Shown here one piece after another: positions 9,183-12,893 of a DNA stretch of 64,000 bases (position 1 is the stretch's first letter; every line of letters starts with the position of its first letter). Position numbers and translations under genes: made by a program. Source of the DNA: Sphingomonas soli NBRC 100801 (GTDB taxonomy: Bacteria > Pseudomonadota > Alphaproteobacteria > Sphingomonadales > Sphingomonadaceae); the NCBI RefSeq assembly GCF_001591025.1, contig NZ_BCTZ01000001.1, positions 248,001-312,000 of the forward strand, written 5' to 3'. The notes below the pieces were generated by a model. That model did no database searches, was not told the origin of the DNA, and saw only the letters and a program-made list of their open reading frames with translations.

Positions 9183-10118
9183 CTATTTGGAGACCGGCAC
9201 GCAGGGGCTCACGCCGCCGCATGCTCCTGCCGCCTCGCCGCGGCTGGCATAGGGGCCGACGAGCACCCGGGTGAGGTTACCCTGCTTCACATAGCTGACC
9301 GAGCGGCCGGGGAAGCGGGCACCGACCTGTCCCCAGAGCTTGCGGGCGTTGTTCGGATCGCCGAACGCGCCGAGCTGGAGGCGCCAGCCGCCATCGCGGA
9401 CCACCGGAGGCGCGACCGGCGGCTTGGGCGTCGCGGCCACGACCGGGCCGGGCTGCGCGGGGCGCGGGGTTGGGCGCGTTGCAGGTACGGCGGGTTCGTT
9501 CGACGCGACGCGCACGGGCGGCGGCAGATCGATATTGGGAGCGCGGTTGAACTCTTCCTCATATTTGCGCGCGAGGGTCAGGCCCTGCTGGCGTTCCTGC
9601 AACGACATATATTTGTCCATCTGCGCCAGCGCGGTGGAGGCTTCGTTCAGGCCGGTCTGCGACGAGCGGGTGACGAGCGCATAGGCGCGAACCCAATCCT
9701 TCGCGACCACATCGCCGTTGAAGTACATGGTGCCGAGAACATATTGCGCGCGGGGATCGTTGCGCTGGACGGCGCGCTGGAGCCAGGTGAGCGCTTCGCT
9801 GCGCTTGCCGTTCGCGAAGAGGGCGAGGCCATAGCTCGCCTCGGCTTGTTCGTGGCCCTGCCACGCGGCCTTCCCGTACCAGGTTTCTGCCTGTTTCAGG
9901 TCGGAGGGCACGCCGCGGCCCAGCTTATAGGCCTGGCCCAGATTGAACTGGGCATCGGCATTGCCCTTGTTCGCCGAGGCGCGCCAGAGATCAACGGCGG
10001 CCTTGTAATCGCCCTTGTCCCATGCATCGACGCCCGCCTTGACGGTCATATCCTGCGCGAGCGCGGGGGATACCAGCAGCGCGGCGCTCGCCACCACAGC
10101 CAACCAACAAGCCTTCAT
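9183..10118 (-). CDS. Secreted Sel1/TPR-repeat protein with C-terminal SPOR domain
   Basis: 311 residues from the ATG at 10118, which has GGGAG 9 bases upstream and begins a clear signal peptide ending in SPALAQ. Residues about 25-170 are Sel1-like repeats (DAQFNLGQAYKLGRGVP; AQYVLGTMYFNGDVVAKD). A Pro/Ala linker follows, then a SPOR domain (WRLQLGAFGDPNNARKLW ... TRVLVGPYASRGEA). SPOR domains bind denuded septal peptidoglycan, so a periplasmic role at the division site is likely. It is divergent from the parA-like operon at 10296, whose last gene also carries a SPOR domain. Confidence 0.88.
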   Translation of the reverse strand: MKACWLAVVASAALLVSPALAQDMTVKAGVDAWDKGDYKAAVDLWRASANKGNADAQFNLGQAYKLGRGVPSDLKQAETWYGKAAWQGHEQAEASYGLALFANGKRSEALTWLQRAVQRNDPRAQYVLGTMYFNGDVVAKDWVRAYALVTRSSQTGLNEASTALAQMDKYMSLQERQQGLTLARKYEEEFNRAPNIDLPPPVRVASNEPAVPATRPTPRPAQPGPVVAATPKPPVAPPVVRDGGWRLQLGAFGDPNNARKLWGQVGARFPGRSVSYVKQGNLTRVLVGPYASRGEAAGACGGVSPCVPVSK

Positions 10119-10295
10119 TCGATCTAACTCCCGCGCCCCCGCAACAATGGATAAGTGCCAGTTAACCATCGAAAGGGAAAGAAACCCTTACTTCACGCGT
10201 CCACAAGGTTCGTCCCGCAGCGGTACGCGTTAACGTATTCTTGAGAGAGCGCGTGGCATCCCATGATCGGTTTCGAGTAAATTCCGAGGGGGTAC

Positions 10296-11012
10296 ATGCG
10301 GGTTCTAGCGATGGCATCGCAGAAGGGTGGGTCTGGCAAGACGACCTTGTCCGGGCATCTCGCCGTGCAGGCGGAGCGCGCGGGCTGCGGCCCCGTCGTC
10401 CTTATCGACATCGATCCGCAGGGTTCGCTCTCGGACTGGTGGAACGAGCGCGAGACCGAGTTCCCGGCCTTTGCCCAGACCACCGTCGCGCGGCTCGCCG
10501 CCGATCTGGAGATCCTGCGCCAGCAGGGCTTCAAGCTCGCGGTGATCGATACGCCTCCCGCCATCACCATGGCGATCCAGAGCGTGATCCAGGTCGCCGA
10601 GCTGATCGTCATTCCGACCCGCCCGAGCCCGCACGACCTGCGCGCCGTGGGTGCCACCGTCGATCTTTGCGACCGCGCGGGCAAGCCGCTGCTCTTCGTG
10701 GTCAACTCCGCCACCCCCAAGGCGCGGATCACCGCCGAAGCTGCCGTGGCGCTTTCGCAGCATGGCACCGTCGCCCCGGTCACCATCCACCACCGCACCG
10801 ACTTCGCATCGTCGATGATCGACGGGCGCACCGTGATGGAGATCGACGCGAACAGCCGTTCGGCCGGCGAGATTGTGGCGCTCTGGTCATACATCGCCGA
10901 CCGGCTCGAGAAGAACTTCCGCCGCACCGTGTTTGCAGCGCCGGCCGCGATCCATAATCACTTCGGCGCGGCGCGCCCTGCAGGCGGGTTTGGCCGCCGG
11001 GTGGTGAGCTGA
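10296..11012 (+). CDS. ParA/ParF-type partition ATPase
   Basis: 238 residues. Deviant Walker A KGGSGKTT at residues 10-17 with the signature lysine, then DIDPQGSLSDWW (Walker A' region) and VIDTPP (Walker B). No N-terminal DNA-binding domain is present, as in the small ParF or MipZ type rather than plasmid P1 ParA. Such ATPases form ATP-dependent dimers on the nucleoid and position cargo. GAGGGGG lies 4 bases before the ATG. The next gene starts inside its stop codon (TGATG), and that gene encodes a ribbon-helix-helix protein, the partner type used by ParF. A palindrome CGTTAACG at 10228-10235 lies in the upstream gap. Confidence 0.88.
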   Translation: MRVLAMASQKGGSGKTTLSGHLAVQAERAGCGPVVLIDIDPQGSLSDWWNERETEFPAFAQTTVARLAADLEILRQQGFKLAVIDTPPAITMAIQSVIQVAELIVIPTRPSPHDLRAVGATVDLCDRAGKPLLFVVNSATPKARITAEAAVALSQHGTVAPVTIHHRTDFASSMIDGRTVMEIDANSRSAGEIVALWSYIADRLEKNFRRTVFAAPAAIHNHFGAARPAGGFGRRVVS

Positions 11013-11533
11013 TGATCGGTAGCTCCAAGCCGATGGCTTCGCTTTCGTCGAACCTTCTCGCCCGCAAGGGCACCGCCAAGCCGGCGATGCGCCCGCAGGG
11101 GTTCGTCGACCTTTCCGCGCACAATCCGCACGACGATCTGGGCTGGAACGACATGGGCGAAGTGCCCGCCGGCCAGCCGGTCCCGAAGCCGGTGGTGCTC
11201 CGGCAGATCGAGGCGATCGAGGAGAAGATCGCGCAGCCACCGGTTCCGGTTGCGGCACCTGCACCTGCACCCGCGCCCGCGCCTGTTCCGGTTGCTCGCG
11301 CGCCGAAGCCCGCTGCGGCGTCGCGCGTCGCGCGGGCGGCTGCTGCCAAGAGCAAGGCCGCGTTCACGCTGCGGCTCGATGCCGATCGCCATCTCCGGCT
11401 GCGCCTCGCGTCGGCCGTGACCAATCGTTCGGCGCAACAGATCGTGACCCAGGCGCTCGACGCCTTTCTGGATGCACAAACCGAGGTCGAGGCGCTCGCG
11501 CGCCAGATCGGCCCGGCAAAGGATCATGGGTGA
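11012..11533 (+). CDS. Disordered protein with C-terminal ribbon-helix-helix-like domain (putative ParG-like partner)
   Basis: 173 residues. Residues 1-115 are low in predicted structure, with a Pro/Ala tract (VPVAAPAPAPAPAPVPVA). Residues about 118-160 fit one ribbon-helix-helix unit: strand AFTLRLD, helix ADRHLRLRLASAVTN, turn RSA, helix QQIVTQALDAFLDA. The gene overlaps the ATPase gene by one base (TGATG), so they are translationally coupled. Known ParG proteins have the same plan: a flexible N-terminal tail that stimulates the ATPase and an RHH that binds the centromere. The DNA-binding assignment is by pattern only, and I do not recognise a named family for the full protein. Confidence 0.75.
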   Translation: MIGSSKPMASLSSNLLARKGTAKPAMRPQGFVDLSAHNPHDDLGWNDMGEVPAGQPVPKPVVLRQIEAIEEKIAQPPVPVAAPAPAPAPAPVPVARAPKPAAASRVARAAAAKSKAAFTLRLDADRHLRLRLASAVTNRSAQQIVTQALDAFLDAQTEVEALARQIGPAKDHG

Positions 11534-11546
11534 GGGGGATCAAGCC

Positions 11547-12893
11547 ATGAATACCCGTAGCAAATTCCTGTTCGGCCTTTCGGCGCTCGCGCTTGGCGGC
11601 GTGCTGGCCGGCGGGGCGATGACCCAGGGCTTCGCGCTCCCGGCCTTCGCAACCGAGGCACCGAACGCCAAGAAGGCAGTCTCCGAGGCGGCCCAGGCCC
11701 GCAAGGCGATCGCCAAGCGCAAGGCCGCGCAGGCCGTGAAGCACGCCGAAGCAGCGGTGGCGAACGACCCGCACAATGCGGATTACCGCGCGCTGCTGGG
11801 CCAGGCCTATCTGCTTTCGGGCCGCTTCACCTCTGCGGCGCAGGCGCTCAGCGACGCGCTGACGCTCAACCCCGAGGATGGCCGCGTTGCGCTCAACCTC
11901 GCGCTCGCCAAGATCGCCGGGGGCGATTGGGCCGGTGCGCGCTCGACGATCGAGACGCATGCCGATCATATCCCCGCAAGCGACCGTGGCCTTGCCCTCG
12001 CGCTGGCCGGGGACCCGGTTTCGGCGGTGGAAATACTGATGTCGGCTGCCCGCGCGGCCGATGCGACTTCGAAGACCCGCCAGAACCTTGCGCTGAGCCT
12101 TGCGCTCGCCGGGCGCTGGCAGGAAGCGCGCGCGCTGGCGGCGGTCGATGTGGCCCCCGATCAGCTCGATGCGCGGATCATGGAATGGGCCAAATTCTCG
12201 CGGCCGACCAATGCCTATGACCAGGTGGCTTCGCTGCTGGGCGTAAGCGCGGTGCAGGATGCCGGGCAGCCGGTGCGGCTCGCGCTGGCGCAGCAGCCGG
12301 GCGTGATGCTGGCGGCGGTCGCTCCGGCCACCCCGGCGGTGGACCCGATCGATCAATATATGCCGAGCGCACCCGCGCCGGCGGTGGTGGCCGAGAGCGA
12401 CGTTCGCGTGGCGAGCGCCGATCCGATCGCCGTGGAAGAGCCGGTCTCGCAGCAGGTTGCGAGCGTGGTGTTCGGCCCGCGCGAGGAAATCGTGCAGCCG
12501 CTTCCGGCGGTGCGATACCGCGCGGCGGCTCCGGCTCCGGTCGCGGCGCCCGTGCGGTCCGCAAGGGTTTCGACGCCAGCGCCGGTGGCGCGCGGCGGCA
12601 AATTCTATGTCCAACTGGGCGCCTATACCAATGCCGCCGTCGCGCGCGACGCATGGGGACGCTATTCCCGCCGGGTTCCGGGGCTCTCATCCAGCGCGCC
12701 GCAGGGGGCGAAGGTCGCCACCCGCGCCGGCACCTTCTATCGCCTCTCGGTCGGTGGCTTCGCGCGGAACGATGCGGATACGCTCTGCCGCCAGGTGCGC
12801 CAGACCGGCGGATCGTGCTTCGTGCGCGTGCAGGCAGGCGACGCGGTGGCGAGCTGGGCCCGCCCCCGCGAGGGGCAGATGGCCTCGCGCTAA
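11547..12893 (+). CDS. TPR-repeat protein with C-terminal SPOR domain
   Basis: 448 residues from the ATG at 11547, which has GAGGGGG upstream; the 75 bases before it are antisense-like and Arg-rich. An N-terminal signal or anchor (FLFGLSALALGGVLAGGAM) is followed by TPR repeats (about 45-230; ANDPHNADYRALLGQAYLLSGR, LNPEDGRVALNLALAK). A long Ala/Pro/Val linker leads to a SPOR domain at about 345-430 (GKFYVQLGAYTNAAVARDAW ... FYRLSVGGFARNDADTLC). It lies 13 bases after the RHH gene and is probably in the same operon. A periplasmic septal peptidoglycan-binding role is inferred from the SPOR family. Confidence 0.88.
   Translation: MNTRSKFLFGLSALALGGVLAGGAMTQGFALPAFATEAPNAKKAVSEAAQARKAIAKRKAAQAVKHAEAAVANDPHNADYRALLGQAYLLSGRFTSAAQALSDALTLNPEDGRVALNLALAKIAGGDWAGARSTIETHADHIPASDRGLALALAGDPVSAVEILMSAARAADATSKTRQNLALSLALAGRWQEARALAAVDVAPDQLDARIMEWAKFSRPTNAYDQVASLLGVSAVQDAGQPVRLALAQQPGVMLAAVAPATPAVDPIDQYMPSAPAPAVVAESDVRVASADPIAVEEPVSQQVASVVFGPREEIVQPLPAVRYRAAAPAPVAAPVRSARVSTPAPVARGGKFYVQLGAYTNAAVARDAWGRYSRRVPGLSSSAPQGAKVATRAGTFYRLSVGGFARNDADTLCRQVRQTGGSCFVRVQAGDAVASWARPREGQMASR

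Follow-up and report, generated by a model that had tools for sequence, protein, structure and literature searches.

We describe a four-gene cluster in the window, a 64,000-nucleotide stretch of the Sphingomonas soli NBRC 100801 genome. At the center of the cluster lie the gene of a small ParF/ParA-type ATPase and that of a 173-residue protein, here called the adaptor, which combines a conserved N-terminal peptide with a predicted C-terminal ribbon-helix-helix (RHH) domain. The flanking genes encode SPOR-domain proteins, one with Sel1 repeats and transcribed divergently from the ATPase gene (Sel1-SPOR) and one with TPR repeats (TPR-SPOR). The four genes form a conserved module. We think it probable, if well short of certain, that this is a plasmid-type (type Ib) ParA positioning module that has become fixed in the chromosome, in which one ParA takes different adaptors by way of one peptide and is linked here to the two SPOR proteins. 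An earlier note on this DNA had singled out the same cluster, and open reading frames (ORFs) and Pfam matches confirm each gene where that note had placed it (Table 1).

An ATPase orthologue, defined by a match of at least 275 bits or by a contig-cut match at 77% identity, is present in 130 of the 147 sampled Sphingomonadales genomes; two more hold only a distant paralogue at 79 bits, giving a raw tally of 132. Among 60 loci picked by hand from the 130 ATPase-bearing genomes, one or more per genus, all four genes stand together in 53, with the RHH gene in 59, the TPR-SPOR gene in 59 and the Sel1-SPOR gene in 54. The arrangement is therefore not a product of chance, and the conserved gene order that the earlier note's reading presupposed holds across Sphingomonadales. 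At one locus (L074), the protein encoded in the divergent position has a SPOR domain and scores as TPR-SPOR. Six loci of one family (f5) have the Sel1-SPOR gene downstream of the RHH gene and ahead of the TPR-SPOR gene, so that linkage is kept through the rearrangement. In a search at E 1e-8, a TPR-SPOR orthologue was missing from 16 of the 17 ATPase-less genomes, with G110 as the sole exception and weak matches over the TPR part in three others. G103, which has no RHH gene, carries the most diverged ATPase of 92, with 0.736 identity to the consensus compared with a median of 0.934.

The properties of the ATPase place it among small type Ib ParA proteins. It has 238 residues with the Walker A motif starting at residue 10, as expected of a ParA that lacks an N-terminal helix-turn-helix (HTH) domain, and the deviant Walker A sequence KGGSGKTT is invariant across the 24 rows of our ATPase alignment (A1). 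Several ParA-superfamily Pfam models match it, its nearest solved structures are ParF (4dzz) and ParA (5u1g) at E 1e-22, and the NCBIfam model ParA_partition (NF041546) gives 163.9 bits, under the curated cut-off of 180. The MipZ model reaches 27.8 bits (Pfam cut-off 20.7) over only 50 of its 262 positions; the same model passes its threshold in all 14 control genomes, and a separate full-length MipZ match at 370 bits is present in the genome of the window. As the earlier note had said of the cluster, ParB is absent: none of the five window proteins scanned matches it, and a pair that reads as ParA–ParB-like lies on another contig (C12) beside a gidB-like ORF. An FtsN-like SPOR protein (L255), also named by reading, is encoded elsewhere in the genome. 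Because the genome has its own ParA–ParB-like pair, MipZ and FtsN-like protein, the ParF-type module is an addition to these systems.

The adaptor family consists of the N-terminal peptide (ASLS..LLARKG.A.PAM), a variable linker and the predicted RHH domain. In an alignment of 63 relatives, peptide residues A17, K19, G20, A22 and P24 are invariant and A9, L11, L15, L16 and R18 nearly so. An additional LGW[ND]D element is nearly universal in the window's family (36 of 37 partners) and occurs in none of 59 other partners. The fold of the C terminus is a prediction. The Pfam model RHH_10 scores below threshold (17.8 bits against 27), and an AlphaFold model shows C-terminal helices with pLDDT block means of 94–97 over residues 121–160, a further helix at 61–74 (block mean 91 over residues 61–70) and low confidence (55–62) over residues 1–50. 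By title or known identity, 15 of 21 Foldseek matches to the RHH model are RHH proteins, CdbA, AtaR, MatP, Arc and CopG among them. A second alignment of these matches gave mostly RHH chains over residues 112–170, with Z values of 3.5–5.6 among the 50 rows shown; for the RHH domain of PutA, Z is 5.6 and the root-mean-square deviation (rmsd) is 1.0 over 44 residues. Such low Z values speak for a common fold and are not evidence of function. The class of the ATPase, the one-base overlap of the two genes and the predicted RHH domain of the partner together support the ParF/ParG-type pair that the earlier note had recognised, including the C-terminal RHH that it had assigned to the 173-residue protein. 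A separate feature of these partners is a cysteine pair (CxC or CxxC) within 45 residues of the C terminus, found in 18 of 22 RHH partners of the order's other families and 22 of 37 outside the order, as against 1 of 37 in the window's family; it is possibly a metal site.

In the genomes searched, strong matches to the peptide fall next to the ATPase. When a 24-row peptide profile (A3) was searched in 46 whole genomes, 40 with the ATPase and 6 without, it gave 38 matches at E≤0.002, which fell in 35 of the 40 ATPase-bearing genomes and all adjoined the ATPase gene. The six ATPase-less genomes gave no match at this threshold, and the best matches away from the ATPase had E values of 0.0135 or worse. 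The ATPase-bearing genomes that gave no match were G103, which lacks the RHH gene, and G178, G285, G198 and G402, whose peptides read as diverged; in G402, a match at E 0.199 lies in the right place. Ten more ATPase-bearing genomes yielded 12 matches at E≤0.002 in seven, each beside an ATPase gene by reading, and none at this threshold in two Novosphingobium genomes and one Kiloniellales genome.

Outside the order, the same peptide is found on proteins of different kinds. When the ATPase alignment was searched against 337 genomes of the class, the scores formed two peaks, with 43 genomes outside Sphingomonadales above 280 bits. We then considered 72 loci with ATPase scores of 200–400 bits as lying outside the order, part of them labelled as the same class and the named ones assigned by score alone; L142 and L208 duplicate L095 and L128 and were excluded. 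The gene after the ATPase encodes an RHH-type protein at 47 of these loci, a protein with the peptide, one transmembrane (TM) helix and a SPOR domain (TM-SPOR) at 15, and something else, cut or unrecognised at 10. Maximal Kyte–Doolittle values separate the two main types, as all 15 TM-SPOR proteins lie between 1.96 and 2.71 and 150 RHH partners at or below 1.64. Both types occur in G154, G250 and G320, and in a tree of 98 ATPases, with rough bootstrap values, the SPOR-type rows require two changes and may yet share one origin. A loose peptide core is present in 42 of the 48 partners scored as RHH; these 48 include L110, which scores through its peptide alone and is counted among the other loci, hence 47. 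The remaining ten are varied: L092 and L138 (the latter titled Kiloniellaceae and lacking a Pfam match) join the peptide to an unrelated C terminus; L110 has a C terminus that by eye is small-HTH-like, not RHH; L115 has the peptide and, by eye, an RHH-like end under the score limit; L284 has peptide proteins, one with a receiver domain; L130 is a plasmid whose RHH protein lacks the peptide in this form; L140 and L270 are contig ends; and L109 and L264 have no recognised partner.

A hidden Markov model (HMM) of the peptide built from 57 RHH partners of the order only was run on 21,838 ORFs. It found 13 of 14 TM-SPOR partners, 11 at E≤3e-4 and two at 0.035 and 0.46, and missed one. Among ORFs of neither partner class, the best E value was 0.0015 and the next 0.44. 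The ORF at 0.0015 encodes the peptide followed by a response-regulator receiver and lies directly after a TM-SPOR gene in the same ParA operon (L164); the receiver-type protein at L284 stands beside another ATPase copy. A second form of the peptide is likely, if less certain. The third gene is of a single family at 13 loci outside the order, and the one member scanned matches PAS_5 over a short stretch of 44 residues (24.8 bits, cut-off 22). An ASLxxIxVRR-like element, a pattern picked after viewing the sequences, occurs in 10 of the 13 proteins, where shuffled sequences predict 0.07, and 1.1% of background ORFs contain it; the other three have SLTSGMIRRR or SLDASLVRRR. At two further loci, the encoded protein combines a similar element with a hydrophobic segment at its C terminus.

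Relatives of the pair are also carried by plasmids. Against 72,556 plasmids, the window ATPase matched 521 records at E 1e-20, among them eight ATPases at 60–80% identity (from Comamonas, Deefgea, Methylomonas, an uncultured plasmid and others) and Xanthomonas proteins at 59–60%. In six near plasmids (Comamonas pZM22-2, Deefgea, PLAsvaD, Xanthomonas pAG1, Achromobacter and Defluviicoccus), the ParA is 57–66% identical and its adjacent partner carries ASLTSGLVAKKGQAAPA or variants, of the form LS/LT..L[IV]A.KG.A.P or shorter by one residue, and ends in an RHH-like C terminus. An annotated replication gene lies at most 1.3 kb downstream in all six, and no SPOR gene is annotated within the stretches shown. 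These pairs differ from that of the window in being plasmid-borne, in having partners of only 80–114 residues and in lacking an annotated SPOR gene in those stretches. The peptide–RHH relatives make the window pair one of plasmid partition type with chromosomal relatives. Plasmid rows lie near the base of the ATPase tree, whose branching cannot tell whether plasmid or chromosome came first. A family restricted to Alphaproteobacteria was considered and dropped given the beta- and gammaproteobacterial plasmids at 59–66% identity; a search across the phylum gave no ATPase match above 161 bits outside the class.

The SPOR proteins of the window fit the earlier note's description of both flanks as exported repeat proteins with C-terminal SPOR domains. 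Their SPOR domains score 55.1 and 39.1 bits against a Pfam cut-off of 21, Sel1 or TPR repeats precede them, and both N termini are of export type by eye. The genome contains five SPOR genes that we found, two of them in this cluster. SPOR domains bind denuded septal peptidoglycan and localise to the septum. The adaptor's N-terminal peptide matches none of 59 TPR-SPOR orthologues and, by reading, is absent from the window's Sel1-SPOR protein. Export-type N termini and lack of the peptide make direct contact of these proteins with a cytoplasmic ATPase unlikely, and direct ParA–SPOR contact in Sphingomonadales was accordingly disfavoured. A TM-SPOR profile gives the window's TPR-SPOR protein 35.3 bits and the FtsN-like protein 34.8 bits, scores so nearly equal that a common origin of the SPOR domains cannot be claimed.

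From these observations, we propose a model, a ParA ratchet with interchangeable adaptors, in which the ATP-bound ATPase dimer would sit on the nucleoid. Docking of the partner peptide (ASLS..LLARKG.A.P) on this dimer would trigger ATP hydrolysis, and the familiar ParA gradient would then move or hold whatever the remaining part of the partner carries. In the window, the partner would hold a DNA target via its RHH domain. In other alphaproteobacteria, where the peptide sits on a membrane-spanning SPOR protein, the same ATPase would be tied to the division septum, whereas in Sphingomonadales the septal end would come from the two linked periplasmic SPOR genes, which may be co-expressed with the pair and would act through some route across the inner membrane. 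By this model, the module probably ties constriction to the placement or release of a chromosomal region.

Another reading accepts the pair and gives up the route to the septum. The pair, akin to those of plasmids, would then be an additional system for segregating chromosomes or positioning DNA, and the SPOR genes would be neighbors kept by shared expression, with no direct mechanistic link. We regard this as unlikely, although several facts recommend it: the six plasmid relatives have the pair and no annotated SPOR gene in the stretches shown; only one RHH-type locus outside the order showed a SPOR gene (L102, RlpA-like); and G110 keeps both SPOR genes adjacent in their usual neighborhood with the ATPase and RHH genes gone. 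Against it stand the SPOR domain on the ParA partner itself at 15 of 72 loci outside the order, linkage that survives rearrangement in family f5, the failure to find the TPR-SPOR gene in 16 of 17 ATPase-less genomes, and L139, a TM-SPOR locus that also has a separate Sel1-SPOR gene. The earlier note's link between nucleoid and division site is thus partly upheld: the TM-SPOR partners outside the order favor it indirectly, whereas the export-type SPOR proteins without the peptide, G110 and the single SPOR gene at RHH-type loci outside the order do not.

The SPOR proteins without the peptide, G110 and the scarcity of SPOR genes at RHH-type loci weigh against the positioning module that we favor, as do further points. 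The loci share descent, which keeps the counts from being independent, and the ATPase-less genomes include incomplete ones. Two Novosphingobium loci (L162 and L168) have no RHH gene after the ATPase, yet their ATPases are intact (0.934 and 0.873 identity to the consensus) and their genomes give no peptide match elsewhere at E≤0.002, which weighs against strict dependence on the adaptor. The A3 profile was partly drawn from loci of the genomes searched, making the E values there partly circular. The loose peptide core misses 6 of 48 partners scored as RHH outside the order, some diverged RHH partners score up to E 5.5 with the 57-row HMM, all Foldseek E values for the RHH model exceed 1, and six more distant plasmid ParAs (~37–45% identical) have small partners without the peptide in this form.

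The region upstream of the ATPase bears on a different role for the adaptor. In the window's family, TTAA-N7-TTRR occurs there in 30 of 38 loci (0.6 in shuffles) and the narrower TTAA-N7-TTAR in 26 of 38 (0.2 in shuffles); in the order's other families, the latter is at background level (1 of 22 loci compared with 1.0 in shuffles). The pattern TTAAC-N6-TTAG was found in 43 of 54 named loci and is almost confined to this promoter, which accounts for 28 of its 31 occurrences in 593 kb of family loci; a reversed-pattern control gave 3. The window's own copy ends in TTGA. The exact sequence TTAACNNNNNNTTAG occurs once in its own genome, away from this locus (reversed control, 3 and 5). We take the element to resemble a CtrA box, whose consensus is TTAA-N7-TTAA. 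The octamer TTAACCAT between the divergent starts resembles a CtrA half-site and may serve the Sel1-SPOR promoter. Sphingomonadales retain the CckA–ChpT–CtrA relay (PMC2877005). Within positions 10120–10300, no direct repeats of at least 8 nucleotides were found, a search that degenerate sites of a centromere array would escape, and the intergenic region has one imperfect inverted repeat. No consensus sigma-70 promoter was found at the cluster's gene starts; one site lies elsewhere, inside the TPR-SPOR gene.

Because many RHH proteins are repressors or antitoxins, as titles of the structural matches attest, and because the pair sits between divergent genes, the adaptor could instead work chiefly in transcription, regulating its own operon and the divergent SPOR genes together with the ATPase as a co-regulator. 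ParG represses parFG, and an element so nearly restricted to one promoter would suit an operator. We consider this role improbable. The element or its TTGA variant persists in three loci without an RHH gene (L039, L162 and L168), making it an unlikely RHH operator and more likely a promoter or CtrA-type site; we therefore disfavored it as the operator. The intergenic region, with no direct repeats found and a single imperfect inverted repeat, also counts against the role, and regulation leaves the peptide on TM-SPOR and receiver proteins unaccounted for.

Comparison with known systems places the positioning module that we propose near several of them. Like ParFGH of TP228 (type Ib), the window has a small ParA with a deviant Walker A motif and no N-terminal HTH, followed by a small protein with a disordered N terminus and an RHH C terminus; ParF is one of the two nearest solved structures, and the ParG match superposes poorly (Z 4.4, rmsd 11.6 over 63 residues). 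Unlike ParFGH, the module is present in most sampled genomes of an order, has a different and strongly conserved N-terminal peptide and a longer linker, is linked to SPOR genes and shares its peptide with non-RHH proteins; no upstream repeat array was seen in the search for direct repeats. MatP is an RHH DNA-binding protein that links the chromosome terminus region to the divisome and is not known to have a ParA partner; it is among the structural matches of the adaptor model, a likeness in structure. The TM-SPOR partners are built like FtsN and other bitopic SPOR proteins, with a single TM helix and a linker between the N-terminal stretch and the SPOR domain, and the Parvibaculum partner at L132 matches a Caulobacter FtsN model weakly (57.9 bits against a cut-off of 300). 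By contrast with FtsN, the TM-SPOR partners carry an N-terminal ParA peptide and adjoin the ATPase gene, and the window's genome has its separate FtsN-like protein.

As a general rule, partners engage ParA/MinD ATPases through a charged, disordered N-terminal peptide while the remainder holds the cargo (PMC10241942). The window module as proposed would share this scheme with McdAB, PpfA–TlpT (PMC9178275), ParC, MinDE and similar systems. Among these, our searches showed no published member with a SPOR cargo end, and none in which a single peptide lets one orthologous ATPase work with RHH, SPOR and receiver adaptors alike. PMC10241942 names known cargos, and SPOR is not a term that it contains; a term search in passages of a spaceflight fitness study (PMC10725011) yielded nothing on these genes. 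No description of a ParA–SPOR pair was found among open-licence PubMed Central texts, titles and the starts of abstracts. The ATPase and its RHH partner are of a known type Ib kind, and, as far as we have searched, a peptide common to unlike cargo domains and the SPOR linkage are undescribed.

There are broader implications. A set of orthologues with one peptide on DNA-binding, septal-wall and signaling domains would show how such systems change cargo and would provide a direct physical connection between the nucleoid and septal peptidoglycan; the pair offers readily testable partner logic in most sampled genomes of one order. More tentatively, and as a possibility rather than an expectation, this ParA could be a plasmid-type partition ATPase that alphaproteobacteria converted into a general cell-cycle positioning hub. 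One ParA would recognise one docking peptide, joined during evolution to end-effectors that include RHH domains (DNA), TM-SPOR proteins (septal wall), CheY/DivK-type receivers and probably membrane tail anchors and PAS-type proteins, and nucleoid position, septum and cell-cycle signaling would share one nucleoid-bound motor.

Table 1 Features of the four-gene cluster, in window coordinates
Feature	Position	Strand	Remarks
Sel1-repeat and SPOR protein	9183..10118	-	divergent from ATPase; Pfam Sel1 4.5e-11, SPOR 1e-14; predicted exported (signal peptide by eye)
SPOR domain of Sel1 protein	9219..9392	-	Pfam, residues 245-302 of the 313-aa translation from 10124
Octamer TTAACCAT between divergent starts	10162..10169	+	on either strand in 8/38 loci of the window's family
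Promoter element TTAACGTATTCTTGA	10230..10244	+	variant of conserved TTAAC-N6-TTAG element; CtrA-box-like
ParF/ParA-type ATPase, 238 aa	10296..11012	+	deviant Walker A KGGSGKT; conserved C-terminal FGRR-like tail
Adaptor, 173 aa	11012..11533	+	N-terminal peptide, Pro/Ala linker, predicted C-terminal RHH
N-terminal peptide ASLSSNLLARKGTAKPAM, adaptor residues 9-26	11036..11089	+	proposed ParA-docking tag
Element DDLGWNDMG, adaptor residues 41-49	11132..11158	+	window's family only
Predicted RHH domain, adaptor residues 114-157	11351..11482	+	AlphaFold and structural matches
TPR-repeat and SPOR protein	11547..12893	+	Pfam TPR_19 8.4e-13, SPOR 9.4e-10; predicted exported (hydrophobic N terminus ending ALPAFA, by eye)
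SPOR domain of TPR protein	12597..12827	+	Pfam, residues 351-427

Some details of the layout complete this account. The TGA of the ATPase gene and the ATG of the adaptor gene have one base in common (position 11012), the overlap that had been read at the outset. The start at 11472 first given for the TPR-SPOR gene falls inside the RHH gene; 11547 is preferred in its place, as it opens a hydrophobic, export-type N terminus. The start of the Sel1-SPOR gene is better placed at 10118. Upstream of the cluster lie a MipA gene (Pfam) and serB-, miaA- and ilvB-like genes, and downstream lie pyrC- and pyrB-like genes, all but the first named by reading.

Two other gene families recur near the ATPase outside the order. 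A DUF2336-family protein, delimited as a BLAST cluster of which one member was put through Pfam (E 4.8e-46), is encoded 1–5 kb upstream of the ATPase at 17 of the 72 loci (L100, L111, L131, L166 and L269 among them). A regulator that by eye is MucR/Ros-like lies 1.4–4.8 kb downstream of the ATPase at L097, L103, L111, L124, L193 and L273.

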